This document shows positions 3,388 through 18,679 of a stretch of DNA of 37,825 bases, piece by piece. Source of the stretch: a virus. Position numbers and translations under genes: made by a program. The DNA lies in the IMG/VR virus record IMGVR_UViG_3300009167_000018, positions 1 through 37,825 of that record; one strand, written 5' to 3'. The notes beneath the pieces were generated by a model, which did not search any database, had not been told where the DNA came from, and saw only the letters and a program-made list of their open reading frames with translations. The stretch's first letter is position 1, and the number at the start of each line of letters is the position of its first letter.

Positions 3388-3390
3388 CAC

Positions 3391-3414: not shown

Positions 3415-3431
3415 CTTTCTCTGGAGGTTTC

Positions 3432-3734
3432 ATGAAAAGCAAGCGAGAGCGATTCACAGACCGGCTCAACGACGTCCAGGGCGCTCAGGCCCTGATGATG
3501 TCGAACCTGGAAGACGCCTACGACTACATCCTGAAGTCGTTCGCCACCACCACGAAGCTGGCAATCGACGCAGCAGATGCGGAGATTGAGCGGCTGAAGA
3601 AGGACGAGCTGGAACTCATGCGCCAGAACCACCCGCTGTTCGACAAGCTGAGAGAGTTGCAGCGCCTTGCCTACCTGCACCAAGAAAGCGTCGACTGGCG
3701 CAACAAGCCCTGGTGGAAGCGGCTCTTCTCATGA
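3432..3734 (+). CDS. Hypothetical protein
   Basis: 100 residues, ATG at 3432 with GGAGG at 3423-3427. This start is preferred to upstream in-frame ones because they lie within the hairpin and have no ribosome binding site. The protein is mainly helical and charged, with Met/Leu-rich central helices and a basic, Trp-containing end (WRNKPWWKRLF). No known motif. Its stop overlaps the primase start (ATGA), so the two are probably translationally coupled. Confidence 0.75.
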   Translation: MKSKRERFTDRLNDVQGAQALMMSNLEDAYDYILKSFATTTKLAIDAADAEIERLKKDELELMRQNHPLFDKLRELQRLAYLHQESVDWRNKPWWKRLFS

Positions 3735-5368: not shown

Positions 5369-5369
5369 G

Positions 5370-5519
5370 ATGACCGGGGATATAGGCAAAAACGCGCCAA
5401 TGATTTCCTTGGCGACCCTGGGCTGTACCCATAGTCCTATACCGACCTGCTACTCATTGCATAGTCGTACCGGTACGCGTTCTATAAACTCTCTATACGC
5501 GTCATATAATTTGTACTAA
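5370..5519 (+). CDS. Possible 49-residue ORF over the AT-rich leader
   Basis: An ATG immediately after the primase stop has a good ribosome binding site (GAGGAGG at 5357-5363) and opens a 49-codon frame ending at TAA 5517-5519. Composition is unlike the neighbours: many Ser, Thr and Tyr with AT-rich codons, and no domain. The frame may be fortuitous, because the same stretch looks regulatory. Kept as a low-confidence leader peptide candidate. Confidence 0.2.
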   Translation: MTGDIGKNAPMISLATLGCTHSPIPTCYSLHSRTGTRSINSLYASYNLY

Positions 5520-5562
5520 GTCTTGAGTCTTCAAGACTCACATTTCTTGAGAATTGTCTCAA

Positions 5563-5582
5563 GAAGTTCTTGGCGAACCGGA
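5563..5582 (+). repeat. 20-nt direct repeat, copy 1
   Basis: GAAGTTCTTGGCGAACCGGA, identical to 13743-13762. Similarity continues weakly to a shared GAGCG word in both places. Here it is noncoding, directly upstream of the helicase ribosome binding site. Confidence 0.8.
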
Positions 5583-5614
5583 ACATGACATGAGCGGTTT
5601 GACTGGAAGGAAGG

Positions 5615-7216
5615 ATGCTATACCCCGTGGAGAACCACTACACGATCTACGGACCACCCGGCTCTGGCAAGACGACCACACTCGTGGGCCGGATCGTCAA
5701 GGCTGTGGGAGACACGCTGTACGGCGGCGACATCCTGATCTGTTCTCTCACCCGCACGGCCGCGCACGAGATCGCCGAGAGGGTGAAGGAGAGGATCCCA
5801 GGTGTCGAGTTCCCGCACGTCGGAACGGTCCACGCCCTCGCGCTGCGCGCCCTCAAGGCGATCGGCGAGGAGCCGAAGCTCGTCTACGAGGAGGAGCACG
5901 TCAGAGACTTCAACCAACAGACAGGGCGCAAGCTGCCGCTCCAGCTCGGCAACATGATGTACGAGTCCGAGACCCCCAACCAGCATCTGCTGTGCCTCGC
6001 TGAGTGCGACCGCATGCGCGCGGCAGAGACGCCGATCGAGAAGTGGACGCAACCGACGCGCCGCTTCTACAACCAGTGGGAGACCTGGAAGTCAATGCGA
6101 GGCCTGATGGACTTCACCGACCTGATCAAGCGCGCGCTCGTGGTGTGCCAGGAGCACCCGGCTGCGCCGCGCTACATCTTCGTCGACGAGGCGCAGGACC
6201 TGAGCCGGCTCGAGATGGCGCTGATCAACCAGTGGTCGATAACAACCGAGAAGACTATTGTCGCCGGCGATGATCAGCAGGCGCTGTACGAGTGGCGCGG
6301 CGCCTCGGTGAAGGACTTCATCGACTTCGCTCCGAAGGAGAACACGTACGTCCTGCCGCGCAGCTACCGCATGTCGGAGGCCGTCTACAAGCAGGCCAGG
6401 ATCTTCGGCGATGCGATCAAGCTGAAGGTCGAGAAGGAGTTCACGCCTGTTGGCGAGGGCGGCGTGGTTGTGCGCCAGCCCGTGACGTCCATCCTGCACG
6501 GGATCCAGGAAGACATGGAAGACGGCTCGGTGATGCTGCTCGCGAGCTGCGGCTTCATGCTGAACCCGCACCTCAAGGAGCTGCGCAAGCTGGGAGTCCC
6601 GTACCACAACCCGTACCGCTCGAGGGCCGAGGGCAAGACCTGGAACCCACTGCGCTCCCGTCAGGCCGAGGCCTACCGTGCGTTCCTGGCGCCGTCGCGG
6701 GGTCAACAACTGTGGACCTGGAACCAGTTCTACTGCATCGTGTCGATGCTCAACAACATCCCGAAGGAGATGCTCGTTGAGGTGATGACGAACAGGACGG
6801 TGCGCACACAGGTCGATCCAGACTTCGTCGATCGCTGGCAGCTCGACGAGTTCCTCACTGCTGCGAAGGACGGCGACTACCACACGTACTTCAACATGCT
6901 CCACCGCGACCACAGGCTGAGTGTGTCCCCGACGTCGCTGTCCCCGATGGCGTACCTCAAGCGCATGATGGACGCTCGAGGAACGCAGGCGCTGTACGAG
7001 ACGCCAAGCCTCATCGTAGGCACCATCCACAGCGTGAAGGGAGGCGAGGCAGACACGGTCTACGTGCTGCCGAACATCAGCCCCGAGGCGTTCAGACAGC
7101 AGGGCTACTCAGGGAAGGACGGCCTGCTCCGCACGTTCTACGTCGGCGTGTCGAGGGCACGCCGCAAGCTGGTCCTCGTGCAGGACCCCAACGAGAGGAG
7201 GGCCATGTGGCGTTAG
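5615..7216 (+). CDS. UvrD/Rep-like superfamily 1 DNA helicase
   Basis: 533 residues, ATG with GGAAGGAAGG just upstream. Helicase motifs appear in order: Walker A GPPGSGKTT (13-21), motif Ia region, Walker B VDEAQDLS near residue 190, motif III GDDQQALYEWRGA near 215, motif IV with LPRSYR, motif V TIHSVKGGEADTVYV near 470, and motif VI YVGVSRARRKL near 509. The spacing and the Q-rich GDDQQ motif are those of UvrD/PcrA-type 3'-5' helicases. It is shorter than bacterial UvrD (about 720), so accessory 1B/2B insertions are reduced. It lies between the primase and a set of small zinc proteins, consistent with a role in phage replication or recombination. Expression is probably set by the AT-rich region upstream. 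Confidence 0.92.
   Translation: MLYPVENHYTIYGPPGSGKTTTLVGRIVKAVGDTLYGGDILICSLTRTAAHEIAERVKERIPGVEFPHVGTVHALALRALKAIGEEPKLVYEEEHVRDFNQQTGRKLPLQLGNMMYESETPNQHLLCLAECDRMRAAETPIEKWTQPTRRFYNQWETWKSMRGLMDFTDLIKRALVVCQEHPAAPRYIFVDEAQDLSRLEMALINQWSITTEKTIVAGDDQQALYEWRGASVKDFIDFAPKENTYVLPRSYRMSEAVYKQARIFGDAIKLKVEKEFTPVGEGGVVVRQPVTSILHGIQEDMEDGSVMLLASCGFMLNPHLKELRKLGVPYHNPYRSRAEGKTWNPLRSRQAEAYRAFLAPSRGQQLWTWNQFYCIVSMLNNIPKEMLVEVMTNRTVRTQVDPDFVDRWQLDEFLTAAKDGDYHTYFNMLHRDHRLSVSPTSLSPMAYLKRMMDARGTQALYETPSLIVGTIHSVKGGEADTVYVLPNISPEAFRQQGYSGKDGLLRTFYVGVSRARRKLVLVQDPNERRAMWR
6700..6719. repeat. Dispersed palindrome, degenerate coding copy
   Basis: GGGTCAACA-AC-TGTGGACCT, with two mismatches to AGGTCAACA/TGTTGACCT, inside the helicase gene. 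May be chance. Confidence 0.4.
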
Positions 7217-7401
7217 CCAGCGACTACACCGAGCTGCGCGTCGACAGGGAGCGATGGATGGCTGCGCTCGAGAGCGACAACAAGGCACTGTTGGCCGGCC
7301 TGGGATGGCTCATCCTAGACCAACTCAAGAGGACTCCGCACCGACCGATCGTGGTCATGTTCAACGAGGAGGTGAGCGATGGGTCAGCCTCAGGGCGGTA
7401 A
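7207..7401 (+). CDS. Small hypothetical protein
   Basis: 64 residues, GTG start overlapping the helicase end by 10 bp, with GGAGG at 7197-7201. Mixed helix; a central hydrophobic stretch (LLAGLGWLILDQL) is too short and interrupted to be a membrane helix. No motif recognised. It overlaps the next gene. Confidence 0.65.
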   Translation: MALASDYTELRVDRERWMAALESDNKALLAGLGWLILDQLKRTPHRPIVVMFNEEVSDGSASGR

Positions 7402-7579
7402 GCCGCCGGCGTCGTATGGTCCGTACGAGATGCAGATGGAGATGATCGCGAGGCAGCAGAGGGCCATGGTCAACCAGCCGCTGCGCCATCGAGTGGAGCG
7501 ATGCAGGTACTGCGGCAGCAAGTGCAGCGAGAAGACACTGAGAGACGCCAAGTGCGAGAACTGTGGAGCAACGCTATGA
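7379..7579 (+). CDS. Small zinc-ribbon protein
   Basis: 66 residues, ATG at 7379 with GAGGAGGTG upstream. The C-terminal half is a zinc ribbon, C-x2-C-x3-C and a final C-x2-C (CRYCGSKC...CENCG), able to hold one zinc. The N-terminal half is Gln/Met-rich and probably disordered. It is one of several short zinc proteins in this genome; partner unknown. Confidence 0.7.
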   Translation: MGQPQGGKPPASYGPYEMQMEMIARQQRAMVNQPLRHRVERCRYCGSKCSEKTLRDAKCENCGATL

Positions 7580-7920
7580 CACCCAAGAACCCAGGCCCGT
7601 GCCCGAAGTGCGGCTTCTTCAACTGTTCTGGTGGAGAACACTGCCCAGCAGCATGGAACGCCGACGACACGATAGAGGAGCCGAAGATGAAGGTCTTTGA
7701 ACTGAAGCCGTCGCCAGAGATGCAGGACCACGAGGTCATCTCGTGGCCGAAGCACTACAACACCGGCAAGATCCAGGTGATCGACTTCATCCTCGACCAG
7801 AAGCTCGGCTTCTGCCTCGGCAACGCGATCAAGTACATCTGCCGGTGCAACCACAAGGGCGACAAGATCAACGACCTGAAGAAGGCGATCCAGTACCTGA
7901 AGTTCGAGCTGGAGAAATGA
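7576..7920 (+). CDS. DUF3310 protein (phage nucleotide kinase-like)
   Basis: 114 residues from the ATG of an ATGA overlap. The N terminus has CPKCGFFNCSGGEHC, a possible metal site. The C-terminal 60 residues match DUF3310 (SWPKHYNTG...QVIDFI...GNAIKYICR...KGDKINDLKKAIQYL), a small helical domain very common in phages near replication genes and sometimes labelled nucleotide kinase. The biochemical role is not established. An internal ATG at 7687 would give only the DUF3310 domain, but it lacks the coupling seen at 7576. Confidence 0.82.
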   Translation: MTPKNPGPCPKCGFFNCSGGEHCPAAWNADDTIEEPKMKVFELKPSPEMQDHEVISWPKHYNTGKIQVIDFILDQKLGFCLGNAIKYICRCNHKGDKINDLKKAIQYLKFELEK

Positions 7921-8237
7921 AGTACATGGACATCTGGGCCAAGCCCCAGCCGAGACCAAAGAAGCAGGCGCAGACCCACCACGAGCTGCCGAAGAGGGTG
8001 AAGGACTGGCCACCCGAGGCGAAGGCCGCGTTCAAGCACGTGAAGAACGAGCTGTGGAAGTGGGCCAAGGCCAAGCCAGGGCGCGATCGTGCCGGCCTCG
8101 CACTGATCGCGTACGTTGGGGTGAAGGAGGCGTTCGAGGGCGAGGTAGTGAAGGCGACAATCATCGACGACGTGATCACGTGCAAGACAATGGAGGAAGT
8201 ATGGACGACGCTCTTATCGCTCAAGTCTCAGCCTTGA
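7917..8237 (+). CDS. Hypothetical protein
   Basis: 106 residues, ATGA overlap with the DUF3310 gene and GGAG just before the start. Basic N terminus rich in Pro, Lys and Gln, then a helical part with many Trp and Lys residues (KNELWKWAKAK), then a hydrophobic helix. It might bind nucleic acid through the basic part, but no family is recognised. The last 37 bp overlap the phosphoesterase gene. Confidence 0.7.
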   Translation: MKYMDIWAKPQPRPKKQAQTHHELPKRVKDWPPEAKAAFKHVKNELWKWAKAKPGRDRAGLALIAYVGVKEAFEGEVVKATIIDDVITCKTMEEVWTTLLSLKSQP

Positions 8238-9427
8238 TGGCTCAGGGTTTCGGCGCCCGAAGGATCGCAGAGACCCTCGGTGTCACTCGACACGAGGCGA
8301 GCAAGTACATCAACGCCATCGACGGTGGGACTCCGAGAGGGAGAGTCTCTGTCCGTGCCGAGCAGAAGACCATGGAGGTGAGCGGCAACGTGCGCGCCAC
8401 GTCCAGGAGCCAGTCGCTCGCAGCCCTGATGGTCGACGCCGAGGTGGACCTCGACGTGTGGCGTGTCAGCCGCTGGGTTGCCAACATGTGGGGCAAGCCA
8501 GAGGATCCGTCGTGGCAGGTCAAGGCGTGGCTCGAGCGCAAGCCGCAGGAGGAGTGTCTGCTCGACGAGCTGATCACCAAGCTCGAGAACAACAGCCCTG
8601 TCGTGCCGCTCGAGTTCACAAAGCCAGACCGCAAGGTAGCGAACCGCGCTTTGGAGATCTCCATCGCCGATCCGCACTTCGGCATGAGAGCCTTCTGTGG
8701 TCCGTCAGGTTCGGACTACAGCTTCGAGAACGCTTCCGAGATCTACAAGCGGAGCATCGAGCTGCTGCTCGAGCGCGCCCTCGGGTGCGGCCCCATCGAC
8801 CAGATCTGCTTCGTGACTGGCAACGACTTCATGCACGCCGACAACGTCTTCCACACCACGACGGCCGGAACACACCAGCCCGAGATGGACTCGTGGCACG
8901 AGACGTTCATCAGGTCCGAGGAGCTGCTGATCTCGACCATCCTCGGGCTCGCCAGCATGTGCCCTGTGCATGTTGTGATGGTCCCAGGCAACCACGCTCG
9001 CCAGTCCGAGTTCGCACTCGGCCGCATCCTCAGGGCGTACTTCATGAACGACGAGCGCGTCACTGTCGACGCCGGACCAGAGCCCTACAAGTTCTGGCAC
9101 TTCGGCGTGAACCTCATCGGGTTCGACCACGGCCACAGCATCAAGGCGACGCGGCTCGCTAGCCTGATGGCCAACGAGCGCCCCACTGTCTGGGGCATGA
9201 CCTGGAATCGTGAGTGGCACTGTGCAGACCAGCACAGAGAGACGCCCACGTTCTCTGAGTTCGGCGTCAACATCAAGTACCTGCCGAGCATGGTGACCTG
9301 GAACGAGTGGCACAAGATCAAGGGCTTCTCGTGGGCGCACCGTGCATCTCTCGGCTTCCTGTACGACCACGACCGTGGCTTGATCTCGACACCTCAGGTC
9401 AACGTGAGGGAGGTCTACCATGACTGA
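8201..9427 (+). CDS. Calcineurin-like phosphoesterase with N-terminal HTH
   Basis: 408 residues, ATG with GGAGG at 8192-8196. Residues 1-40 form a helix-turn-helix (GFGARRIAETLGVTRHEASKY). After a linker comes the metallophosphoesterase core with all metal motifs: D-x-H in ADPHFGM (D157, H159), GND (207-209), PGNHAR (262-267) and a late DHGH (309-312). The order and spacing are those of Mre11/SbcD-like phosphoesterases, with two metal ions acting on phosphodiesters. The HTH in front would bring the enzyme to DNA. It lies just before a VRR-NUC-like nuclease, so recombination or host DNA breakdown are fair inferences. No SbcC-type ATPase partner is in the window. Confidence 0.85.
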   Translation: MDDALIAQVSALMAQGFGARRIAETLGVTRHEASKYINAIDGGTPRGRVSVRAEQKTMEVSGNVRATSRSQSLAALMVDAEVDLDVWRVSRWVANMWGKPEDPSWQVKAWLERKPQEECLLDELITKLENNSPVVPLEFTKPDRKVANRALEISIADPHFGMRAFCGPSGSDYSFENASEIYKRSIELLLERALGCGPIDQICFVTGNDFMHADNVFHTTTAGTHQPEMDSWHETFIRSEELLISTILGLASMCPVHVVMVPGNHARQSEFALGRILRAYFMNDERVTVDAGPEPYKFWHFGVNLIGFDHGHSIKATRLASLMANERPTVWGMTWNREWHCADQHRETPTFSEFGVNIKYLPSMVTWNEWHKIKGFSWAHRASLGFLYDHDRGLISTPQVNVREVYHD

Positions 9428-9731
9428 GAACAACTTGCAGGCCGCGATAGTTCGCTATCTCAACACCCTGCCCAACACAGTCGCCAGAGTGAACGGCCCA
9501 GGCCCCGCCCACGTGGTCGGCGACCCCGACATCTACGGCTGCGTCGGCGGGCTCATGTTCCACATGGAAGTGAAGGCAGAGAAAGGACTTGTGTCCCCCA
9601 TCCAGGAGCACCGCATGCACCAGTGGCAGACGGCCGGCGCCAAGGTCTACGTCGTGCGCAGCATGGACGACGCCAAGGCCGCGCACTCTCTGGCGCATCA
9701 ATACGCCAACATCCACGCCCTGGTCGACTGA
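9420..9731 (+). CDS. VRR-NUC-like PD-(D/E)XK nuclease
   Basis: 103 residues, start overlapping the phosphoesterase stop by 8 bp with GAGGGAGG upstream. The PD-(D/E)XK core is visible: GDPD (34-37) as the metal-binding aspartate motif and MEVKAEKG (49-56) as the E-x-K motif, followed by a helix with QEHRMHQWQ and a VYVVRS strand, the pattern of stand-alone VRR-NUC domains. Such phage enzymes resolve branched DNA or nick near junctions. It is the last gene before the bidirectional hairpin. Confidence 0.85.
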   Translation: MTENNLQAAIVRYLNTLPNTVARVNGPGPAHVVGDPDIYGCVGGLMFHMEVKAEKGLVSPIQEHRMHQWQTAGAKVYVVRSMDDAKAAHSLAHQYANIHALVD

Positions 9732-9738
9732 CAAAAGA

Positions 9739-9769
9739 AGAGGGCCGGAGCGCAACGCTCCGGCCCTCT
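9739..9769. terminator. Bidirectional hairpin between convergent operons
   Basis: Perfect 14-bp stem AGAGGGCCGGAGCG / CGCTCCGGCCCTCT with loop CAA. It lies 8 bp after the plus-strand nuclease stop and about 20 bp from the end of the minus-strand operon. A-rich (ACAAAAGA) on the left side gives a U tract for minus transcription; the right side is weaker. Confidence 0.85.
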
Positions 9770-9788
9770 GTGCTCCCCTAGCAGGGAG

Positions 9789-9962
9789 CTACTCGTCCTC
9801 GGCCGGCTCCGGCCTGCTCCACTTCCCCAGCTTGCGCAGCTTGGCCGCGCACTGCTGGCAGATGACGCCGCCCGTGCGGCTCGCCGCCCCCACGTGGACC
9901 TTGCGGGCGCGGTCCCGGTCGACCACCCACCCGCACTTCAGACACCGCACCTTGTCGCTCAT
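9789..9962 (-). CDS. Small zinc-binding protein
   Basis: 57 residues on the minus strand, ATG at 9962-9960 overlapping the stop of the ArdC-like gene (ATGA), so translation is probably coupled. Two CxxC pairs (CLKC and CQQC) separated by about 28 residues form a zinc ribbon. The C terminus is acidic with Pro. It is the last gene of the minus operon, next to the bidirectional terminator. Function unknown. Confidence 0.75.
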   Translation of the reverse strand: MSDKVRCLKCGWVVDRDRARKVHVGAASRTGGVICQQCAAKLRKLGKWSRPEPAEDE

Positions 9963-10810
9963 GAGCCCGCCTCCTCGATGATGCGCGCGACCGCGCCAGT
10001 GATCCGACCCAACAACAGGAACGCGGTCTTCCGAGGATCCGCGTCGTACTTGCAGACGTAGTCCCAGGCGCCGCGCAGGTCGACCTCGTTGTCGTAGCCG
10101 GCGAGGCGCAGCAGCACGCACGCGCCGACCTCAGCCACGACCTCGTTGTCGGGCTGCTGGCCGCGCGCCTTGGTCAGGGTGCCGTTGAGGTCCTCAGCGG
10201 CGTGGATCATCTCGTGCGCCCAGACCTGGAACTGCGCGGCGCTGAGCCCGATCTTCTTGCCGTGCTCGTAGTACCCGTCGGCCCAGCCGTTGCCGTTGAA
10301 GGCCTCGACCTTGAGCCCCCACTTGTCGGCCACGGCCAGCCACGGCAGCGAGTCGAGGAACGTCTGCACCTTGCCGTCCTTGTCGCTGTACTGCGCCCAC
10401 AGTTCCTCGTTGAACACGTCGGTCTGTTCGATGCCGAACACCGGCCACGCCTCGAAGCCGGCGAGGTACTGGATCTTCACGCGCTGCTTCTCACCGGTCA
10501 GGTTGCCGTCGTCGTCGCGCACGTCCACTTCCTTGAGGAAGCTGCGCATGATCGGCTTCAGGATCGCGAACGCGTGCTCACCCTCACGGACGTTGCGGCC
10601 TCTCGACTGCCACGTCTGGTAGGTCGCGGCGTCGTTGTGTCCGTTGAGGAACACGAGCAACTGGTTGCGGGCCGACCACCTCGAGCAGTAGCGCTCGGCC
10701 ACGTTGAGGTAGACCTTAGCCATCTTCGCCGGCAGGTCGTTGGGATTCTCGAACGCCTTGAGGATCAGCTCGAGGGCCTTCTCTGCGTGCTGTTCGACTT
10801 GCAGTGCCAT
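9959..10810 (-). CDS. ArdC-like antirestriction protein (zinc metallopeptidase)
   Basis: 283 residues, ATG at 10810 with GGGAGG upstream; a longer in-frame start is rejected because it crosses the palindrome and the previous stop. The N-terminal part fits the ArdC single-stranded-DNA-binding domain (SRWSARNQLLVFL, TYQTWQSRGRNVREGEHA, then AFAILKP). The C-terminal part has a metallopeptidase helix HEMIH (199-203) with a downstream glutamate in NEVVAE (about 223-227) as third zinc ligand. ArdC-type proteins protect incoming DNA from host restriction. It is slightly short but complete, and a 20-bp palindrome lies just ahead of its ribosome binding site. Target in this host is inference. Confidence 0.85.
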   Translation of the reverse strand: MALQVEQHAEKALELILKAFENPNDLPAKMAKVYLNVAERYCSRWSARNQLLVFLNGHNDAATYQTWQSRGRNVREGEHAFAILKPIMRSFLKEVDVRDDDGNLTGEKQRVKIQYLAGFEAWPVFGIEQTDVFNEELWAQYSDKDGKVQTFLDSLPWLAVADKWGLKVEAFNGNGWADGYYEHGKKIGLSAAQFQVWAHEMIHAAEDLNGTLTKARGQQPDNEVVAEVGACVLLRLAGYDNEVDLRGAWDYVCKYDADPRKTAFLLLGRITGAVARIIEEAGS

Positions 10811-10821
10811 GTGGACCTCCC

Positions 10822-10841
10822 AGGTCAACAGTTGTTGGCCT
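10822..10841 (-). repeat. Dispersed 20-bp palindrome, noncoding copy 2
   Basis: On the minus strand AGGCCAACA-AC-TGTTGACCT. As at 3368 the base before it is T, so the TAG stop of the upstream gene is part of the element. It ends about 12 nt before the ArdC-like start codon and borders its ribosome binding site. Confidence 0.8.
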
Positions 10842-11175
10842 ACTGCGAGCAGTGGCCGTGCTCGATGACGACGTCGCGCAGGTCGGCCTGCGCGTTCAAC
10901 TCGGAACGCTTCCACCCTTCCTTGCTCTGCTTGGACAGCTCGCGCGCCGTCACCAGCAGCTCGCGCACCTCGTCGGTCAGGTCCTCGACGAGCTGCACCG
11001 AGTTGTCGAGCATGCGCTTGCTGACCTCGTTGTTGACCAGCTCGTGGTGCCGGAACGCGGCCTGCCAGTCGTCGCGCGCCGTCATCAGCTCGCGCCCGAC
11101 CTTGATCGCCTCGGCATGCACGACCTTGGCCAGCCGGCCGGCGACGTACGTGCTGACGTTGAGTGTGATGATCAT
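10840..11175 (-). CDS. Helical hypothetical protein
   Basis: 111 residues, ATG at 11175 with AGGGGG upstream on the minus strand. Mostly long charged helices (RELMTARDDWQAAFRHHE, then ELLVTARELSKQSKEG), probably coiled coil. No cysteine cluster or membrane segment. Its TAG stop is the first part of the palindromic repeat. Function unknown; it is co-transcribed with the antirestriction gene. Confidence 0.7.
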   Translation of the reverse strand: MIITLNVSTYVAGRLAKVVHAEAIKVGRELMTARDDWQAAFRHHELVNNEVSKRMLDNSVQLVEDLTDEVRELLVTARELSKQSKEGWKRSELNAQADLRDVVIEHGHCSQ

Positions 11176-11185
11176 GTCGACCCCC

Positions 11186-11644
11186 TCAGCAGCTCAGCTT
11201 GGGCGGCGTGAAGGTCGCCGTCTTGTTCTGGCACTCGCTGCACATGTGCTTGGTCACGCCCTCGTGCTCGTACTCTTGCCAGTCTTCCGGCGTGGTGTGG
11301 CCGGTCTGAGCGCGCCAGCAGCCACAGACGCCGGTGCCGTCGCACTTGGTCTCTTCGACCCAGGTGATGGCGTCGAGGGTGTCCTGCACGCCGGCGATCT
11401 GCCTGCGCTCCAGCTTGAGGCCGTCCGACTTGAGCGGCACGATCGCGTACTCGTGGTCGGTGTGCTCGGTCCCTGGCTTGGTGAACTTCTCCCAGCGCCG
11501 CACGCCCACGGCGCGATCGAGCGCCGAGAACGCGGCGGCGGCGTCCGCTGCCGTGGCGAACGCGAACACCTCGTTGCCCACCTCGACGCAGATGGTTGAC
11601 GGCAGGTTCGCCTCGTTGATCTGGGACCTGTACCTGTAGCTCAT
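11186..11644 (-). CDS. Hypothetical protein with C-terminal Cys cluster
   Basis: 152 residues, ATG at 11644 with AGGAGG upstream on the minus strand. The N-terminal half looks like a small alpha/beta domain with an Ala-rich helix (TAADAAAAFSALDRA). The C-terminal third contains Cys residues in CDGTGVCGC and CSEC plus a final Cys, together with His, which could bind one or two zinc ions. No family recognised. It follows the hairpin at 11702-11681. Confidence 0.7.
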   Translation of the reverse strand: MSYRYRSQINEANLPSTICVEVGNEVFAFATAADAAAAFSALDRAVGVRRWEKFTKPGTEHTDHEYAIVPLKSDGLKLERRQIAGVQDTLDAITWVEETKCDGTGVCGCWRAQTGHTTPEDWQEYEHEGVTKHMCSECQNKTATFTPPKLSC

Positions 11645-11680
11645 GGGATCCTCCTTGGCTTGCCCTGAAGGGCAGCGAGT

Positions 11681-11702
11681 GGCGGCGCCCTGCGGCGCCG
11701 CC
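11681..11702 (-). terminator. Intergenic hairpin in minus operon (copy A)
   Basis: Perfect 9-bp stem GGCGGCGCC / GGCGCCGCC with loop CTGC (plus-strand reading), just after the stop of a 56-residue gene. There is no U tract, so partial attenuation, RNA processing or mRNA stability is more likely than full stop. A smaller hairpin TGCCCT/AGGGCA follows at 11674-11661. Confidence 0.5.
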
Positions 11703-11707
11703 CCGCG

Positions 11708-11878
11708 CTACACTCCACGCTTGCGTGCCACGCCTACCCGCTTGCGCGCCACCGAGCCGCGTTCCAGGCGGTCGGCCGCTTGGTACAGCGCCTCGGGGTA
11801 CCCCTGACCCGTCAGGCCCATCACGAAGGCGTACTTACGCAGGCCTGCGATCAGCTTGGGCAGTGGCACGGCTTCCAC
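11708..11878 (-). CDS. Small basic hypothetical protein (56 residues)
   Basis: A GTG at 11878 opens a 56-codon frame on the minus strand, one base after the stop of the ParB-like gene, with GGGGGAG upstream. It ends at TAG 11710-11708. The protein has an N-terminal helix with LPKLIAGLRKYAF and a very basic end (VARKRVGVARKRGV), so it may bind nucleic acid. Without it the stretch 11645-11879 would be an unusually large gap for this compact operon. No family recognised. Confidence 0.6.
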   Translation of the reverse strand: MEAVPLPKLIAGLRKYAFVMGLTGQGYPEALYQAADRLERGSVARKRVGVARKRGV

Positions 11879-11879
11879 C

Positions 11880-12653
11880 TCACTCCCCCTTGACCCGGTT
11901 GGCGTCCGCGAACGCCTTGAGCGACGCGGCCAGCTTGTCGAGGTAGTCCATGCGCTCGTTCCACGAGTTGACGCTCTTGCGGCCCACGCCCTCGGTCACG
12001 CGCACCGTGATCGCCTCGACGATCGCCTCGACGCCACCGCCCGACCAGCTCCCGCCGGCCATGTTCCAGGCGCTCGCCGGCTTGCCCTTGACCGGCACCG
12101 CCTCGACCTTGCCGCCCTTGTCGATGCTGACGCCGGCCTCGATCGTGCCCTTGGCCTTCGGCTTGGCCTTGTGCCCGCTCTGCGCGGCCTTCGGGCTCTT
12201 CTCACCGATCGCGTCGCGGTAGCGCTTGATGGTCATGTCCGACACACCCAGGCGCTTCGCGATCGTGGCGTTCGACAGCTTGCTGAAGGTCGCGGTCTGG
12301 ATCAGCTCGATGATGGCCAGCCGCTTCTCTTGGGCGGTCAGCGTGAGGCCGTGGGTCACGTTGTCGGTGAACGCCAGCACCTCGGCGTCGATCGCGGCCT
12401 TGCACTCGACCACGTTGACCGGCAGCTCTTCGATCTTGGCCTTGACGGCTGCGGCGAGCCGGTGGGCGCCGCCCACGAGCACCTCGGTGCCGGCCTTGCC
12501 GACCTTGGCGACGGTCAGGGCGGGAAACTCGACGCCGCGCTCCATGAGCGCCGCGTACTCCGCGACGGTCTCCGGGTTGGTCGCCTGCAACCGGAACGTC
12601 CGCGTCGGCATCAACACCAGCTCGGCCACCTTGCGCACTGCACTCTTTGCCAT
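11880..12653 (-). CDS. ParB-like protein (ParB N-terminal fold plus HTH)
   Basis: 257 residues, ATG at 12653 with GGAGGTGTGAC upstream. The N-terminal domain carries the ParB/sulfiredoxin-fold box GGAHRL (61-66), the site that in ParB CTPases and nucleases binds nucleotide, followed by a second conserved stretch NVTHGLTLT (98-106). A helix-turn-helix follows (ATIAKRLGVSDMTIKRY, about 129-145). The C-terminal third is Lys/Gly-rich then helical. Phage ParB-like proteins may be regulators, nucleases or partition factors; no ParA is seen nearby, so plasmid-style partition is not supported. It is the most likely local candidate to bind the dispersed palindromes, but that is only a guess. Confidence 0.82.
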   Translation of the reverse strand: MAKSAVRKVAELVLMPTRTFRLQATNPETVAEYAALMERGVEFPALTVAKVGKAGTEVLVGGAHRLAAAVKAKIEELPVNVVECKAAIDAEVLAFTDNVTHGLTLTAQEKRLAIIELIQTATFSKLSNATIAKRLGVSDMTIKRYRDAIGEKSPKAAQSGHKAKPKAKGTIEAGVSIDKGGKVEAVPVKGKPASAWNMAGGSWSGGGVEAIVEAITVRVTEGVGRKSVNSWNERMDYLDKLAASLKAFADANRVKGE

Positions 12654-12689
12654 GTCACACCTCCGTTGGCTTGGCACTAAGGCCAGCGT

Positions 12690-12711
12690 GCAGCGCCCCG
12701 TAGGGCGCTGC
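12690..12711 (-). terminator. Intergenic hairpin in minus operon (copy B)
   Basis: Perfect 9-bp stem GCAGCGCCC / GGGCGCTGC with loop CGTA, just after the stop of the 91-residue gene and 37 bp before the ParB-like start. Same position, stem length and loop size as the hairpin at 11681-11702, with a shared TTGGCTTG word toward the next start. No U tract. Confidence 0.5.
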
Positions 12712-12720
12712 TCGCTAGAC

Positions 12721-12996
12721 TCAGGTCGAGTAGTTGTGCTGGCGCGTCGCCGTCACCCACACCTTGGCGTCGGCGATCTGGTCGCCGCCCTCGGTGAAGG
12801 CGACGATGTAGTCGCTCACGTCGAGGGTGCGCCCGCCGGCGATCGACGACCAGTCGATCATGAGGTTGGTCTTCGAGGCCGACTCGATGCGCTCGATCAG
12901 CTTGCCGAACCGCACCAGGGCCTGCGCGAGGTTGTCGAACGCGTACTCGTCGACGCCGCTCTGCGAGTTCCACCGCACCACGTACAGCTTGGCCAT
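12721..12996 (-). CDS. Hypothetical protein, first gene of minus operon
   Basis: 91 residues from the ATG at 12996, which has the same GGAGGTGTGAC leader as the ParB-like gene. The protein is a small alpha/beta domain (MAKLYVVRWNS, a central helix AQALVRFGKLIERI, then strands). The frame stays open upstream to an ATG at 13155, which would add 53 residues including CARC and HRRC, a possible zinc site; see the promoter entry. I favour the short form because of its ribosome binding site. Function unknown. Confidence 0.65.
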   Translation of the reverse strand: MAKLYVVRWNSQSGVDEYAFDNLAQALVRFGKLIERIESASKTNLMIDWSSIAGGRTLDVSDYIVAFTEGGDQIADAKVWVTATRQHNYST

Positions 12997-13161
12997 GTCA
13001 CACCTCCGATGAGCTAGGCCGTTGTGGCCTGCCACAAGCGCACCGTTGCCCGACGAATCCCTTGGAGAGGCGTCGGCGTGGCATCTTGCGCAGTCGCCGA
13101 CTGTGTCCCTGTTGATAAGTCCGGTGCGCTTGCGGTAGGTCACCTCGTTCCTCATGCAACC

Positions 13162-13190
13162 ACAGTACAGAGGTCCTGGGACTAAGTCAA
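13162..13190 (-). promoter_or_regulatory. Sigma-70-like promoter for the minus operon
   Basis: On the minus strand TTGACT (13190-13185), a 17-nt spacer, then TACTGT (13167-13162). The predicted start is near 13155, the position of the first in-frame ATG of the 144-residue form. A small inverted repeat GTCC-CA-GGAC sits in the spacer and could be an operator. Confidence 0.6.
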
Positions 13191-13235
13191 GCCCCCTCTC
13201 TTGCGATGTTGTATCGTGCTGGTTGGAGGTACGAC

Positions 13236-13790
13236 ATGAGCCTGGAAGACCTGAAGGCAGACGCCCTGCGCCGCAGCTCCGAGTGTGCAGCGCGCGACGC
13301 CATGATCGACGCCGAGGCAGCGCGCCTCGTGGCGTTGAAGGTGGAGCGCGAGCTGTCCAAGTTTACGACCGAAGAGAAGACCGCGTTCCTGGAGGCCCTG
13401 GAGCAGCACGGCAACATCTCCCGCGCGTGCCGCTCGTGCGGCATCTCGCGCCGCACAGCGAACGTCGCACGGAGCAAGGATCCGCTGTTCGCCGACGCGT
13501 GGCACGAGATCTTGGAGGCCAAGGTCGACGACGTCGCCGGCGTGCTGTACCAGCAGTGCATGGACCCCAGCTCGGCGAACACGGTCGCCCGCATCTTCTA
13601 CCTGAAGTCCATGCGTCGCGAGCAGTACGGCGAGCACGTACGCGTCGACCACGGCCACCGCGTGGAGCTGGAGGTCGTGCTGCTGCCTCCCGAGCGGTCG
13701 CGCCTCGGCGCCGGCGTTGTGGAAGCTGAGGTCGTCGACGCTGAAGTTCTTGGCGAACCGGACAGTGATCAGAGCGCATCCATTGGATGA
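13236..13790 (+). CDS. Terminase small subunit-like HTH protein
   Basis: 184 residues, ATG at 13236 with TTGGAGGT upstream. A basic, Ala-rich N-terminal helix is followed by a helix-turn-helix of the phage TerS/phBC6A51 type (FLEALEQHGNISRACRSCGI, about residues 53-72), then RTANVARSKDPLF, a helical part, and FYLKSMRREQYGE, a pattern common before the disordered C terminus of such proteins. It would bind the packaging site and load the large terminase, which lies 3 kb downstream. The 3' end contains one copy of the 20-nt direct repeat. A plain DNA-binding regulator is the alternative. Confidence 0.7.
   Translation: MSLEDLKADALRRSSECAARDAMIDAEAARLVALKVERELSKFTTEEKTAFLEALEQHGNISRACRSCGISRRTANVARSKDPLFADAWHEILEAKVDDVAGVLYQQCMDPSSANTVARIFYLKSMRREQYGEHVRVDHGHRVELEVVLLPPERSRLGAGVVEAEVVDAEVLGEPDSDQSASIG
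13743..13762 (+). repeat. 20-nt direct repeat, copy 2
   Basis: GAAGTTCTTGGCGAACCGGA inside the 3' end of the terminase-small-like gene (coding EVLGEP), identical to 5563-5582. Confidence 0.8.
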
Positions 13791-13927
13791 GGTGAGCTAT
13801 ATCCCCGGTGTGTGCTAGCCACACACACGTGGAGCGCAGGGCACAGCGGGCGGGGGCGCACTGCCACGTGCAGCCACGCCGCAAAAGGCGCTGCCCTCTG
13901 CTGCGCTGCGCAGTGCGCACAGCACGC

Positions 13928-13947
13928 AGGCCAACAGATGTTGACCT
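13928..13947 (+). repeat. Dispersed 20-bp palindrome, noncoding copy 3
   Basis: AGGCCAACA-GA-TGTTGACCT in the 444-bp noncoding region, oriented with the plus-strand genes. Outside the centre it is identical to the copies at 3368 and 10841-10822 (minus). Here it is not next to a stop codon. Confidence 0.8.
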
Positions 13948-14131
13948 CATCGTTCTATCCTGTTTGGAATCAATGTGTTGCGTGCGCTGAGCTGCGATCA
14001 GAGCCCGCTGCTGCGGCGGGCGAGGCGCGCCGATGGGGGGAGGGGGGCGCGTCCCCCCGCGCGGGTCATTCAGTAGGCCCTGTGCGCTCCACACCCGGCT
14101 GCGCCAAAAAGGGTCGACTAAGTCGTTACGT

Positions 14132-14172
14132 TTCCTCGGTCACCGTTGACATTCCCCGAGGAATCGTAATAT
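14132..14172 (+). promoter_or_regulatory. Promoter with flanking inverted repeat (probable operator)
   Basis: A perfect TTGACA at 14146-14151 is followed after 15 nt by TAATAT (14167-14172). The spacer is shorter than the ideal 17, so the -10 may be read one or two bases later. A perfect 8-bp inverted repeat, TTCCTCGG (14132-14139) and CCGAGGAA (14156-14163), brackets the -35 box, as an operator would. It would drive the genes from 14235 through the terminase. Confidence 0.65.
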
Positions 14173-14234
14173 CCTGCCCTCAGGACGGAGCACCGGGCAT
14201 GTCGCCCACAGCCCCACAACCACAAGGAGGCCCC

Positions 14235-14525
14235 ATGCTGGTTGTGAAGTGTGACGTGTGCAAGCAAGCCATCGAAGAGGACATGGACATCCTGGAGATC
14301 AGGCAGGGCACCGCCGGCGCCGGTCCGACCGACGTCACCACCGCCCACGTGTGCAAGGCCTGCCAGGAGAAGCTGGGCATCGGAGAGTACCTCCACAAGC
14401 TGCGCAGCGCCGGGTTCCGAAGCCAGAACGTACGGAAGGACGTACGTTCAGAGATCGCTCAACCTGACGGGACACCCATCCCGGTCGACCCGCGCTTCAT
14501 CAAGCGCATCCAGGGAAGGAGCTGA
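14235..14525 (+). CDS. Zinc-binding hypothetical protein
   Basis: 96 residues, ATG at 14235 with AAGGAGG upstream; an in-frame ATG at 14199 lacks such a site. Two Cys pairs, CDVC (near residue 6) and CKAC (near 46), form a split zinc knuckle around a Gly/Thr-rich stretch. The C-terminal half is basic and Arg-rich (RKDVRSEI, then RFIKRIQGR). It is the first gene after the promoter at 14146. I do not recognise the family; a small transcription or replication helper is possible. Confidence 0.75.
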   Translation: MLVVKCDVCKQAIEEDMDILEIRQGTAGAGPTDVTTAHVCKACQEKLGIGEYLHKLRSAGFRSQNVRKDVRSEIAQPDGTPIPVDPRFIKRIQGRS

Positions 14526-14527
14526 CC

Positions 14528-14869
14528 ATGGCCGAGACCAAGAAGAACTGGACCGAGATCCCCGGACCGTACCCCCGCAAGGCGTGCCTGGAGGCCTACA
14601 ACAAGGCGTCGAGGTGCATGTACGACTACTTCCCGGCGTCGAACGCGGACGAGGCCTGCGAGGCCATCATCCGTGAGGTGCGGGCGGTGCTGAAGGCCAA
14701 GAGCCTGGAGGAGGCGGTGGCGTTCCTGGAGGGCGACGCGAACCAGCTCAACGAGGACACCGTCTTCGACGTGTGGGCGTCGGACTGGAAGCTCAGCTAC
14801 ACCGCCGCCGCCATGATCAAGCGGGTGCGCGCCGTGTGGCGCCAGATGATGGGACTGGAGGCCGTGTGA
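14528..14869 (+). CDS. Hypothetical protein
   Basis: 113 residues, ATG at 14528 two bases after the preceding stop, with GGAAGGAGC upstream. Helical and Ala/Glu-rich with scattered aromatic residues; a VRAVWRQMM helix ends the protein. No cysteine cluster, signal or membrane helix. Its stop overlaps the next start (TGATG). Function unknown. Confidence 0.75.
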   Translation: MAETKKNWTEIPGPYPRKACLEAYNKASRCMYDYFPASNADEACEAIIREVRAVLKAKSLEEAVAFLEGDANQLNEDTVFDVWASDWKLSYTAAAMIKRVRAVWRQMMGLEAV

Positions 14870-15099
14870 TGAAGGCCTGCCTGCACTTCGACCTGAAGGA
14901 CGACGAGGACCACAACGACTTCGAGCTGATGCTCAAGTCGCAGGACTGGAAGGAAGCGTTCCAGGCCGTCTGGAAGTACGTCCGAGACCAGCTCGAGTAC
15001 TACTCCGAGGCGCACACCAAGGAGTGGGCAGAGACCGTCGCGACCGTGAAGGAGAAGATCACCGAGATCGCAACCGAGTACGACGTGGAGGTGTGGTGA
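14869..15099 (+). CDS. Small acidic hypothetical protein
   Basis: 76 residues starting at a TGATG junction and ending at another. Strongly acidic (DLKDDEDHNDFE) with several Trp and Tyr residues and a C-terminal helix TVKEKITEIATEY. Such small acidic phage proteins can be inhibitors or DNA mimics, but nothing specific is visible. Function unknown. Confidence 0.7.
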   Translation: MKACLHFDLKDDEDHNDFELMLKSQDWKEAFQAVWKYVRDQLEYYSEAHTKEWAETVATVKEKITEIATEYDVEVW

Positions 15100-15854
15100 T
15101 GGGCATCTTCGACGAGTACGAGAAGTACATCAACATGTTCCTGTCTCAGCAGTCGGCCAACATCTTTGGCGAGGGAGGCTACGCGCCGAAGCCGATCGCG
15201 GAAGACCCGATCGCCAAGCAGAAGGAAGACGCCCTGAAGGACATGGCCAACTGGTTCCAGAGGGCGGCGGTGGGTCAGGTGATCCACAACTTCCACAACG
15301 GTCCGGTGAGCAACGAGCGGCCGACCGGGCCGCACCCGGACTACACCAAGAGGTCGAGCACGTCGTTCGACCTGCACGACGACGTCCACGGCCCGACGTT
15401 CCACGTCAGGACCACCGTCTCGCTCAGCGACACTGCGGCGAGGATCGCCAAGAACTGGGACTCGCTGTCGCTGCAACTGAAGACCGACGCGTTCGAGCGG
15501 CACGCTCTGAGCTGCGCCTACCAGATCCTGTACTCCGTCGGGGCGAAGGGCACCTTCGCGAAGGTTGAGGACTGCCCGACCTGTGGCACCAAGAGGGTGA
15601 TCGGCAACACGTGCCCGGAGCAGGGGTCGGGGTTCGTTGAGCGGGTCGGACGGCTCCCGAACTACGACTACGACAAGTGGCGCCTGCTGTACTGCTCGGA
15701 CCGGCTGATTCGGTTCATCAAGGTGAACGACCGCGAGTCGTACTGGAGCAGCCAGTTCAAGCTCGTGATCGACAGCGCCGGCGGCATCAGGAACGGAGAG
15801 GGCGGCAGGCCGTACTACTGGCGGCTCGACCCGCGCCCGTGGTACCGCAAATGA
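15099..15854 (+). CDS. Hypothetical protein with Cys cluster
   Basis: 251 residues, TGATG junction at the start. An N-terminal helix (DEYEKYINMFL) leads into a domain with many His/Asp residues (SFDLHDDVHGPTFHVRTT) and a later CPTCGTKRVIGNTC motif (about residues 165-178) that could bind zinc. The C terminus is rich in Tyr, Trp and Arg (YYWRLDPRPWYRK). No known family recognised. It sits in the run of small genes between the terminase-like genes. Confidence 0.75.
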   Translation: MGIFDEYEKYINMFLSQQSANIFGEGGYAPKPIAEDPIAKQKEDALKDMANWFQRAAVGQVIHNFHNGPVSNERPTGPHPDYTKRSSTSFDLHDDVHGPTFHVRTTVSLSDTAARIAKNWDSLSLQLKTDAFERHALSCAYQILYSVGAKGTFAKVEDCPTCGTKRVIGNTCPEQGSGFVERVGRLPNYDYDKWRLLYCSDRLIRFIKVNDRESYWSSQFKLVIDSAGGIRNGEGGRPYYWRLDPRPWYRK

Positions 15855-16030
15855 AAGGGCCGAGCTGGAACAGGTCGGAGAAGGAGCGCAAGCAGGACGA
15901 GTGGAAGGAGCACTTCATCGAGGAGTTCGGGTGGGACGCCTACGCTTTCTTGAAGCGCGTCCACCCCGTCGTTGACGTGCTCGTGTTCGAGCCGGCCGAG
16001 ACCGTGGATGCCGAGGTGGTGGGTGACTGA
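15851..16030 (+). CDS. Small hypothetical protein
   Basis: 59 residues from the ATG of an ATGA overlap. Basic N terminus (NRSEKERKQDEWKEH), a helix with aromatic residues, and an acidic, Val-rich end. No motif. The next gene starts inside its 3' end. Confidence 0.65.
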   Translation: MKGPSWNRSEKERKQDEWKEHFIEEFGWDAYAFLKRVHPVVDVLVFEPAETVDAEVVGD

Positions 16031-16319
16031 CCAGCTCGTCACCGTGCTCGCTGAAGCGGCTCCGTCAGACGGGTACTCTCAGGCGTACGAATGGCGCTGC
16101 CCGCACTGCGACGTCAAGTGCTTCGGAGAGCGATGCGCGTGGGGCTTCAGGTACAGGCACTACGTCCATCGCTGTGCGTACTGCGACCACGAGTACGTCG
16201 TGCGGCGCGAGAGCTACAACGAGACGATGGATCGCCTGTATCCGAACTTGAAAGACGTGAGGGCGATCATCGAGCGGGTCATGGGGGCAGATCGTGGCGA
16301 TACAAGAAAGAACTTGTAA
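16023..16319 (+). CDS. Zinc-binding hypothetical protein
   Basis: 98 residues; the start is taken as GTG at 16023 (GAGGTG upstream), overlapping the previous gene by 8 bp. Cys and His residues in CPHCDVKC, C, HYVHRC and CAYCDHEY form what looks like one or two zinc sites in the middle. The C-terminal part is helical. Start assignment is moderate. It overlaps the FmdB-like gene. Confidence 0.65.
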   Translation: MTDQLVTVLAEAAPSDGYSQAYEWRCPHCDVKCFGERCAWGFRYRHYVHRCAYCDHEYVVRRESYNETMDRLYPNLKDVRAIIERVMGADRGDTRKNL

Positions 16320-16545
16320 GAAGTGCGGGCACCACTTCTTGCTCTGGCGGCAGTTCATGAAGGACCTGCCGAAGCGACCGTCGTGCCCACAGTGTGGAAG
16401 CAGGGCCACCAAGCCAGAGATCGTCGGCCGGCTTGCGGTACACTTCAAGGGGCCTGGGTGGACGCCCAAGAGCGGTCAGGTCAAGGACCTCCGCGACATC
16501 AAGGGCATGGACGACCCCAAGCTGGCGGCGGCGATGGAGGACTGA
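16294..16545 (+). CDS. FmdB-like zinc-ribbon protein
   Basis: 83 residues, GTG start at 16294 with GGGGGCAG upstream. CKKCGHHF (residues 8-15) and CPQCGS (31-36) give a compact zinc ribbon, followed by LAVHFKGPGWT, the F-K-G-x-G-[FW] ending typical of FmdB-family putative regulatory proteins. In phages these small ribbons often lie near terminase genes. A role in transcription is suggested by the family name but not shown. Confidence 0.75.
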   Translation: MAIQERTCKKCGHHFLLWRQFMKDLPKRPSCPQCGSRATKPEIVGRLAVHFKGPGWTPKSGQVKDLRDIKGMDDPKLAAAMED

Positions 16546-16823
16546 TGGACGGGAAGAACGTAGGCCACGATGAGGCCACGACAGCTCTTTCGGAGACGGG
16601 GGCGAACGCGCCCCCGTTTTTTGTTGCTGCGATGGCCAAGTCAGTGACGTGTGAGAAGTGCGGCTGTGAGGTGATCCCACCTGGGCGCCTGACCATGTTC
16701 GATGGTATGGTGTCCAGGACGTGGTGCGACTGCATCACGGAGCAGGAGATGAACGATCTGGCGGTCCAGTTCGAGGCGCTCTGGCGCATGTGGACTGGGA
16801 GCCCGAAGGTGATGCAAGCGTGA
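16545..16823 (+). CDS. Zinc-binding hypothetical protein overlapping a terminator
   Basis: The frame opens at a TGATG junction (16545) and runs 92 residues. Its first 30 residues are encoded across a strong intrinsic terminator (16596-16622). From the ATG at 16632 a 63-residue core carries CEKCGCEV and CDC, a likely zinc site, then a helix with LAVQFEALWRMW. The short form lacks a visible ribosome binding site, so the long form may be translated by coupling, with the hairpin as an attenuator. The stop overlaps the terminase start. Confidence 0.6.
   Translation: MDGKNVGHDEATTALSETGANAPPFFVAAMAKSVTCEKCGCEVIPPGRLTMFDGMVSRTWCDCITEQEMNDLAVQFEALWRMWTGSPKVMQA
16596..16622 (+). terminator. Intrinsic terminator
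   Basis: Perfect 9-bp stem ACGGGGGCG / CGCCCCCGT with loop AACG followed by six T residues. It is the most canonical terminator in the window and lies 200 bp before the large terminase start, within a reading frame. Confidence 0.85.
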
Positions 16824-18211
16824 ACGACGAACGGGTACAGAAGATCAAGCTGAGCGTGGGGAGCACCCCACCGCAGAGCGAGTTCTGGCAAAACGACCGA
16901 AGGTTTCGGGCCTTCGTGGGCGGGGTCGGGTCGGGGAAGACCTATGCTGGCGTCCTCGAGATCCTTCGTCAGCCTCCTGGTTCGCGCGGCGCTGTCATCG
17001 CGCCGACCTACAGGATGCTCATGGACGCTACTCTTGACACCCTGATGAAGATCTTTCAGCAGGCGAACCTGATCGGGGAGTGGATCAAGAGTGAGATGAG
17101 GTTGATCACGTCGCACGGGACAGACATCATCTTCCGCTCAGGTGATGACCCGGAGAAGCTGCGTGGTCCCAACCTCGGCTGGTTCTTCCTGGACGAGGCG
17201 GCGATGATGCCGGAGCTGGTGTGGGACATCATGATCGGCCGGCTCCGTCTCGACCCAGGTCGCGCGTGGTGTACGACGACTCCGAAGGGTATGAACTGGC
17301 TGCACCGCCTGTTCGTCACGGAGAAGCGCGAGGACTATTCGCTCGTCCAGTGCTCGTCGCACTCCAACCAGTTCCTCCCCGAGTACTTCATCAAGTCACT
17401 CGAGTCGAAGTACAAGGGGGCCTGGAAGGACCAGGAGCTGATGGGGCAGTTCGTCGATTGGGTAAACTCTCCGGCGTACGAGGAGTTCCATCGCTCGCTC
17501 CACGTGCGGAAGAATCTCATGGAGGAATACCGTGACCGACTCCCTCTCAAGCTCTGCTGCGACTTCAATGCCCGCTGTATGGTTTGGCCTGTTGTACAGG
17601 TCAACGGCAGGACGCCACGTGTTCTTGTGGAGATCGCGCAGGTTGGGCGAACGTCCATTCCCCAAATGGTCAAGGAGTTCAGGCTCGCGTTTCCGAATCA
17701 CTCTGGAGGTGTTCAGGTTTTCGGTGACGCTACTGGCATCGGTCTGGCTGCGCAGACCGGGCAAACGTCGTTCGACGCCATCGTAGAAGCGTTCCGTGGG
17801 TACAGCTCGTACGTCGAGCTGATGGTCCCGAAGACAAACCCTACGGTTCGCTCTCGCGTCAACTCCATGAATTCGGTCCTGCGTGGCACCGGCGAGTGGG
17901 AGCCGCTCATGATCGACGAGAAGTGCGAGATGCTGATCCGCGACTTCGCGTTCGTGGAGTGGGACGAGCGTGGCACCGGGCTCCTCAAGATCTCCGACCT
18001 GAACGACGAGCGGAGCACCCTGACGCACGCCACGGACGCGCTCGGGTACTGGGCGGCGATCGACATCCCGTCGTCCAACGTCTACATCTCGAAGAACGAC
18101 GACAACTACATGGAGCTGCCGAGGGAGAACGAGGCCAGGAGGCAGTGGATGAGCGAGCTGCACGGGAAGAGAGCTTCCGGCGCCGGCTTGACGGGCCTCG
18201 ATTTGGAGTAG
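16820..18211 (+). CDS. terL: Terminase large subunit
   Basis: 463 residues, GTG start in a GTGA overlap with AAGGTG upstream; a longer in-frame start is less likely. ATPase motor motifs: Walker A GGVGSGKT (34-41), Walker B WFFLDEAAM (121-129, with D125 and catalytic E126), and motif III CTTTPKG (151-157). The C-terminal RNase H-like nuclease has its acidic residues in CCDFNARC, in FGDATGIG and in ATDALGYW. This is the enzyme that packages phage DNA into the procapsid through the portal encoded 2 kb downstream. Length and motif order are normal for the family. Confidence 0.95.
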   Translation: MNDERVQKIKLSVGSTPPQSEFWQNDRRFRAFVGGVGSGKTYAGVLEILRQPPGSRGAVIAPTYRMLMDATLDTLMKIFQQANLIGEWIKSEMRLITSHGTDIIFRSGDDPEKLRGPNLGWFFLDEAAMMPELVWDIMIGRLRLDPGRAWCTTTPKGMNWLHRLFVTEKREDYSLVQCSSHSNQFLPEYFIKSLESKYKGAWKDQELMGQFVDWVNSPAYEEFHRSLHVRKNLMEEYRDRLPLKLCCDFNARCMVWPVVQVNGRTPRVLVEIAQVGRTSIPQMVKEFRLAFPNHSGGVQVFGDATGIGLAAQTGQTSFDAIVEAFRGYSSYVELMVPKTNPTVRSRVNSMNSVLRGTGEWEPLMIDEKCEMLIRDFAFVEWDERGTGLLKISDLNDERSTLTHATDALGYWAAIDIPSSNVYISKNDDNYMELPRENEARRQWMSELHGKRASGAGLTGLDLE

Positions 18212-18307
18212 CGTGCGCAACCCCAGCTCCTGTGGACCGGGGGCTGCACTTGCGCATGCGAGGTAGAATGTGCGAGTCTATGGACTGGAGTCACCAAGGA
18301 GGACATG
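18212..18307 (+). promoter_or_regulatory. Short intergenic region, possible promoter
   Basis: This gap holds an imperfect stem (AGCTCC with GGGGGCT, about 18224-18243), then TAGAAT (18264-18269), a fair -10 box without a clear -35. A good ribosome binding site (GGAGG, 18298-18302) follows. A weak promoter for the structural genes is possible. Confidence 0.35.
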
Positions 18308-18679
18308 ATGTCAGACTACCCAGAGAGCAAGGCAACGAAGAAGGTCAACCCGAGAGACAGGGTGTTCCTCTTCGACTACAGCGTGGATACAGATCTCACG
18401 GCGGCGATCAACAAGGAGCACCTCGACATCTGCGGGCTCCGGTTCCCGGCCAGCTTCGAGGGGACGGCCGTGACCTTCCTCGAGTCGGACACCGAGGCCG
18501 GCGCGTACAACGCGGTCTGGTGGGAGGGGGCGCTGTTCACACTCGTGTGTGCAGCGGACAAGACCGTGATGTTCGACCCGGCGAAACTCTCCGGCTTGAA
18601 GTGGCTGAAGCTGACATGCGCTCCTGTCGTCGCCGCTGACCGGATCGTGACCCCGATCTATCGCGATTTCTCTGGCTGA
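18308..18679 (+). CDS. Hypothetical virion-region protein
   Basis: 123 residues. Two tandem ATGs exist (18305 and 18308); the second is preferred because it lies 5 nt from GGAGG. The protein looks beta-rich and acidic, with conserved-looking aromatic strands (VFLFDYSVD, AVWWEGALFTLVC, LKWLKLTC). No signal peptide. It opens the set of three genes between terminase and portal and is coupled to the next by TGATG. A small structural or capsid-surface protein is possible but unproven. Confidence 0.7.
   Translation: MSDYPESKATKKVNPRDRVFLFDYSVDTDLTAAINKEHLDICGLRFPASFEGTAVTFLESDTEAGAYNAVWWEGALFTLVCAADKTVMFDPAKLSGLKWLKLTCAPVVAADRIVTPIYRDFSG

Follow-up and report, generated by a model that had tools for sequence, protein, structure and literature searches.

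T7-like phages carry intercistronic RNase III processing hairpins between their early genes, and these hairpins are long and imperfect, with small internal mismatches. Cluster K mycobacteriophages encode ESAS, inverted repeats that lie just ahead of the starts of several genes and are specific to that phage group (PMC3203893). ArdC binds transferred DNA and protects it against restriction, and its ArdC-N domain and a metallopeptidase domain commonly occur together (PMC5512222). Here, we describe a block of phage genes that encodes a relative of ArdC and has a repeated, predicted hairpin between its genes. The window that we analysed spans a whole IMG/VR record (37,825 bases). Its left end holds an open helicase fragment, so the record may be incomplete.

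The explanation that we favour, and consider moderately probable, is that the block is a leftward accessory operon with a constant ParB-like member, swapped cargo that includes ArdC, and intercistronic hairpins that cut or insulate the mRNA. It would be a single operon in one group of uncultured tailed phages, bordered by the last of the replication/repair genes on one side and the packaging genes on the other. Transcription would run from a putative promoter in the divergent junction with the small-terminase gene (terS) to a clear terminator before a convergent nuclease-like gene. The ParB-like helix-turn-helix (HTH) protein would be the constant member, the remaining genes would be exchanged among phages, and the ArdC relative would be one cargo gene of the window phage. 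A hairpin reaching from the upstream stop codon to the next Shine-Dalgarno (SD) sequence would cut or insulate the polycistronic mRNA, and each gene may thereby be translated from its own ribosome site.

Gene content of the block

Seven minus-strand genes had been predicted at 9789-13155, and the open reading frames (ORFs) are present where claimed, each with an SD-like sequence. They lie, also as described, between a converging and a diverging gene, which are the nuclease-like gene and terS, respectively. GC3 is 0.92-0.99 in six of the seven ORFs (0.81 in g3), and the block overall reaches 0.94, compared with 0.80 in 32 plus-strand genes (Mann-Whitney p 0.0007). High GC3 and SD-like sequences are what genes would show, and the block is real. 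A related phage (L003, see below) has homologues of g1, the ParB-like gene, g4 and g5 at the corresponding position and with matching orientation; thus, the overlapping plus-strand ORFs are not genes.

The first gene, g1 (12721..12996, minus strand), encodes a 91-aa protein with no assigned function and 66% identity to its L003 counterpart. Its start is most likely at 12996 (MAKLYVV) and not at 13155, because 12996 is preceded by a good SD and coincides with the start in L003, whereas the extension to 13155 lacks an SD and has weak coding bias. The region 12997..13161 (minus strand; GC3 0.72) is either a leader or an in-frame 52-codon N-terminal extension of g1, with an ATG at 13155. It contains a small hairpin, AGGCC-ACAAC-GGCCT, upstream of the g1 SD. 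Ahead of g1' in L003, GTCGGGCAACGG and AGGCC-ACAWC-GGCCT are also present. A leaderless, longer form of g1 starting at 13155 is possible, as its ATG lies ~6 nt past the putative -10, like those of leaderless messages. The extension (12997-13155, minus strand) carries CxxC and H/C residues. An AlphaFold model of g1 built from two sequences was uninformative (pLDDT 41).

The remaining genes, all on the minus strand, are g2 (11880..12653; 257 aa), which is ParB-like with an HTH; g3 (11708..11878; 56 aa), whose start was corrected to a GTG at 11878, right after the ParB stop codon; g4 (11186..11644; 152 aa), with a cysteine cluster (CDG..G.C.CWR...HMC..CQ) that is kept in L003; g5 (10840..11175; 111 aa), with 35% identity to an L003 gene; the ArdC-like g6 (9959..10810); and the zinc-ribbon-like g7 (9789..9962; 57 aa). 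The cysteine or basic clusters anticipated in three of the uncharacterised proteins were found in g7 (CxxC...CxxC), g4 (CxxxxxCxC...CxxC) and the basic C-terminal tail of g3. A search for homologues of g3 returned none.

The block in related phages

A near-identical contig, IMGVR_UViG_3300006224_000056, has 99.95% identity over window positions 3154-20634; judging by this identity, the two are the same or nearly the same phage, recovered twice. Searching with the ParB-like protein, exo and g1 retrieved two distinct relatives, L003 (IMGVR_UViG_3300037486_000106, 45 kb) and L005 (IMGVR_UViG_3300031578_000365, 22.6 kb), and the comparison covers three distinct phages, whose records may be incomplete. 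With the block as query, no match was obtained among cultured phages at the nucleotide level. In the exo relatives L008-L010, nothing block-like was seen next to exo, and no block protein was matched by tblastn.

Both L003 and L005 carry a reversed block in the same slot as the window, from the nuclease-like gene to terS. The gene order in L003 is a 98-aa ORF, g1, g4, ParB, a short TM-like ORF, g5, a 118-aa ORF and a zinc-ribbon ORF. The L005 block contains two unrelated ORFs, ParB, a 98-aa ORF and two zinc-ribbon ORFs. Common to the three phages are ParB, which is the sole clear gene family, and, at the 3' end, a zinc-ribbon gene. The genes g1, g4 and g5 were found again in one relative, L003. 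As L005 shares only the ParB and zinc-ribbon ORFs, the operon 'core' is based on few genomes. A profile search found ArdC only in the window and its near-duplicate contig, and not in the L003 and L005 records. Since the same operon occurs in both relatives, and both lack ArdC, the operon appears to be a standing feature and ArdC an optional one.

Transcription signals

The original prediction had the block read from one promoter. A candidate exists (TTGACT-17 nt-TACTGT; 13162..13190, minus strand), and a 10-of-12 promoter, TTGACA-17-GATCAT, lies at the equivalent place in the L003 divergent junction. However, the window site was recognised by eye, has a weak -10 and falls below the tool threshold, so the claim stops short of proof. 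In L005, a long palindrome at 7110-7160 (GTCAACCAC...GTGGTGATGGTTGAC) lies across the block promoter's putative -35 and is a possible operator.

An intrinsic terminator with a 14-bp stem (z -7.1) closes the block at 9739..9769 (minus strand). L003 has a similar terminator at 9873-9896, and a comparable GC hairpin followed by a T run was seen by eye in L005.

The ArdC relative and its neighbours

The ArdC-like call for g6 holds. The protein combines an ArdC-N ssDNA-binding domain with a zincin metallopeptidase of the HExxH...E type (HEMIH...E) and has full-length plasmid relatives. It matches PF08401 (ArdC-N) at 26.7 bits (cut-off 22.6; E 6.8e-6; 28.4 bits in the genome search) and phrog_7245 at E 3.5e-8. 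Over 89% of its length, it has 32% identity to a plasmid protein from Alicyclobacillus whose annotation is ArdC-like, and its HEMIH and downstream E align with plasmid ArdC-like proteins. A profile of g6 and its relatives matched the ArdC structure 6SNA in the PDB (E 8.5e-14) in an alignment that spans the HExxH motif; phmmer with g6 alone gave no ArdC match in the PDB, and the match needed the profile. Protein searches of cultured phages with g6 found nothing at 1e-5 and returned only weak matches in Lactobacillus JCL1032 and Gordonia Stormageddon/RedWattleHog. The AlphaFold model of g6, built from one sequence, was likewise uninformative (pLDDT 38). By analogy with its family, the likeliest role of g6 is to bind single-stranded phage DNA, either incoming or replicating, and to protect it against host nucleases. 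It adds an unusually placed phage member to a plasmid antirestriction family.

The block had also been proposed as a cluster of anti-defence genes, and of this proposal the true ArdC relative and the variable accessory operon are supported, and the anti-defence role of the neighbours is not supported. In the related phages L003 and L005, the operon persists without ArdC, and thus g1, g4, g5 and ParB go with the operon and not with ArdC. The five uncharacterised block proteins had no match at a meaningful level in Pfam or NCBIfam. ArdC is the single recognised anti-defence gene in the block by Pfam, PHROG and NCBIfam; several together were not found. The genes g1, g3, g4, g5 and g7 are operon residents or swapped cargo.

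It is rather unlikely that ArdC and the small proteins form a set of early-expressed anti-host factors in which the swapped genes are other anti-defence genes. Such a set would accord with the restriction-protection role described for the ArdC family (PMC5512222), with small proteins that lack homologues, and with cargo that varies among relatives, as arms-race selection would predict. However, no cargo protein apart from ArdC and ParB matches a described family, g1, g4, g5 and ParB are kept where ArdC is missing, and the other restriction-alleviation-like match of the genome sits outside the block. The cargo of the accessory operon may have an anti-host role; the locus warns that adjacency to one known gene is a poor ground for inferring anti-defence function.

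The match outside the block, the only other of its kind in the genome, is the product of 431-820 (plus strand), which hits Pfam Lar_restr_allev (restriction alleviation protein Lar) barely above the cut-off (E 7.9e-7). Its function is uncertain, because the matched family is a zinc-ribbon family. Beside it, 820-1431 (plus strand) encodes a HIPKTGG motif reminiscent of sulfotransferases; the protein had no Pfam match (820-1431) and no PHROG match (751-1431).

The ParB-like protein

The prediction that g2 is a ParB/HTH protein is borne out by a match to phrog_1033 (E 3e-9 over residues 26-145) and by matches to several phage ParB families. The protein has 73% identity to the L003 copy and 56% to the L005 copy. 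It scores 13.9 bits against TIGR00180 parB_part, under the cut-off of 58.45, and so lies outside the canonical partition model. A ParB scan of GTDB genomes gave only weak matches to Streptomyces HTH regions. No ParA-like gene was recognised in a scan of the seven block genes, the flanking proteins and the main proteins of the window. Thus, we anticipate that g2 is not involved in partition and probably serves the operon as a regulator that binds DNA or as an accessory factor.

An intercistronic RNA element

A feature absent from the original prediction, and the most interesting part of the block, lies in the gaps between its genes. It is an imperfect hairpin of ~55 nt that starts on the upstream stop codon or next to it, and the element ends just before the next SD in six of seven copies. 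Copy 1 extends from the g1 stop codon to the ParB SD (12654..12726, minus strand; z -4.7; covariance model E 5.1e-17 as a training sequence), and copy 2 from the end of g3 to the g4 SD (11645..11719, minus strand; E 4.3e-16, also a training sequence). The 28-nt 3' part of copy 2 is the same as in the element ahead of the L005 ParB gene. Folding z is about -4.7 or lower in five of six copies, the g3-g4 copy having a z of -2.6.

The RNAalifold consensus has 19 pairs with internal mismatches, and nine of these pairs show two-sided (compensatory) changes. In an alignment whose cell counts are inflated by near-identical paralogues within L003, 95.4% of cells are paired, compared with 38-45% when partners are slid, and there are 10 G-U cells against one A-C cell, which suggests that it is the sense strand, as RNA, that is conserved. 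None of 500 shuffles matched the element on any measure. The covariance model (R1) recovered the six training copies and one L003 copy outside the training set (E 4.4e-6). This further copy lies directly 3' of the stop codon of the first block gene; it has no SD behind it and opens a ~400 nt leader ahead of g1'. The other matches were antisense shadows of known copies and two weak hits (E 0.07 and 0.2), and the model found no clear copies outside the block in the window, L003 and L005. Rfam gave no match above the gathering score in the same three records.

The missing U tract shows that the element is not an intrinsic terminator. Apart from the known relatives, a scan of viral contigs for the element core gave two hits (L014 and L015), which fall within coding sequence of unrelated contigs and were judged to be chance.

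That the cargo genes share no common role and the hairpins are mere GC-rich intergenic sequence is very improbable. The genome is GC-rich and has many strong hairpins by energy alone; energy therefore fails to single out the element, and the case for it consists of covariation and placement. It is the covariation, the restriction to the operon, the placement after stop codons and the independent recovery of a further copy that argue against mere composition. Other hairpins of high stability, at about -42 to -45 kcal/mol for each 70 nt, occur in or beside intergenic gaps at 14001-14070 (plus strand) and 24921-24995, and were not found by the covariance model of the element.

The inverted repeats could instead be parS-like DNA operators to which the ParB-like protein binds, and the block a partition or plasmid-like maintenance cassette. 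They do lie directly ahead of parB in all three phages, and a long palindrome covers the putative -35 of the L005 promoter. However, the arms differ between copies and yet remain paired through compensatory and G-U changes, which points to RNA, and the proteins scanned included none recognisable as ParA-like, as an integrase or as a plasmid replication protein. We consider such a cassette improbable, if slightly less so than mere composition.

Within the favoured accessory operon, the role of the element is most likely mRNA processing or translational insulation of neighbouring cistrons. More tentatively, and with less than even confidence, it may represent a new family of phage structured RNA, in which the upstream stop codon is clamped in a repeated hairpin that governs processing or translation at cargo-operon boundaries, newly swapped genes being slotted between standard RNA modules. 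If confirmed, the element would reveal how expression of a variable cargo operon is maintained in a phage during gene swaps, and it would provide a sequence handle for locating cargo genes in related phages.

Comparison with known systems

Like ArdC of plasmids pSa and R388 (PDB 6SNA, 6I89; Pfam ArdcN and MPTase-PolyVal), g6 has an N-terminal ArdC-N domain and a C-terminal zincin with HExxH and a downstream E, and is of similar length. Unlike these, it is encoded in a phage operon and not on a conjugative plasmid, and it has 25-36% identity to its aligned relatives. The g2 protein resembles the ParB/sulfiredoxin-like phage proteins of phrog_1033 and phrog_4715 in its ParB-like N-terminal region and GGxHR motif followed by an HTH, but differs from them in that a ParA partner was not recognised among the window proteins scanned and the TIGR00180 match is weak.

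The intercistronic element shares with the hairpins of T7-like phages a long, imperfect stem between cistrons, its 19 pairs agreeing with the ~20 bp expected of RNase III substrates. It differs from them in being confined to one operon of a phage group. Among described systems, the nearest analogue of the element is SAS/ESAS of the cluster K mycobacteriophages (PMC3203893). Both consist of inverted repeats that are specific to a phage group and lie just ahead of several gene starts, and in our comparison the position of the element matches, with no common consensus between the arm sequences. ESAS arms have a 17-bp consensus and adjoin SAS (PMC3203893), whereas the element has variable arms that compensate each other and a stem that includes the upstream stop codon.
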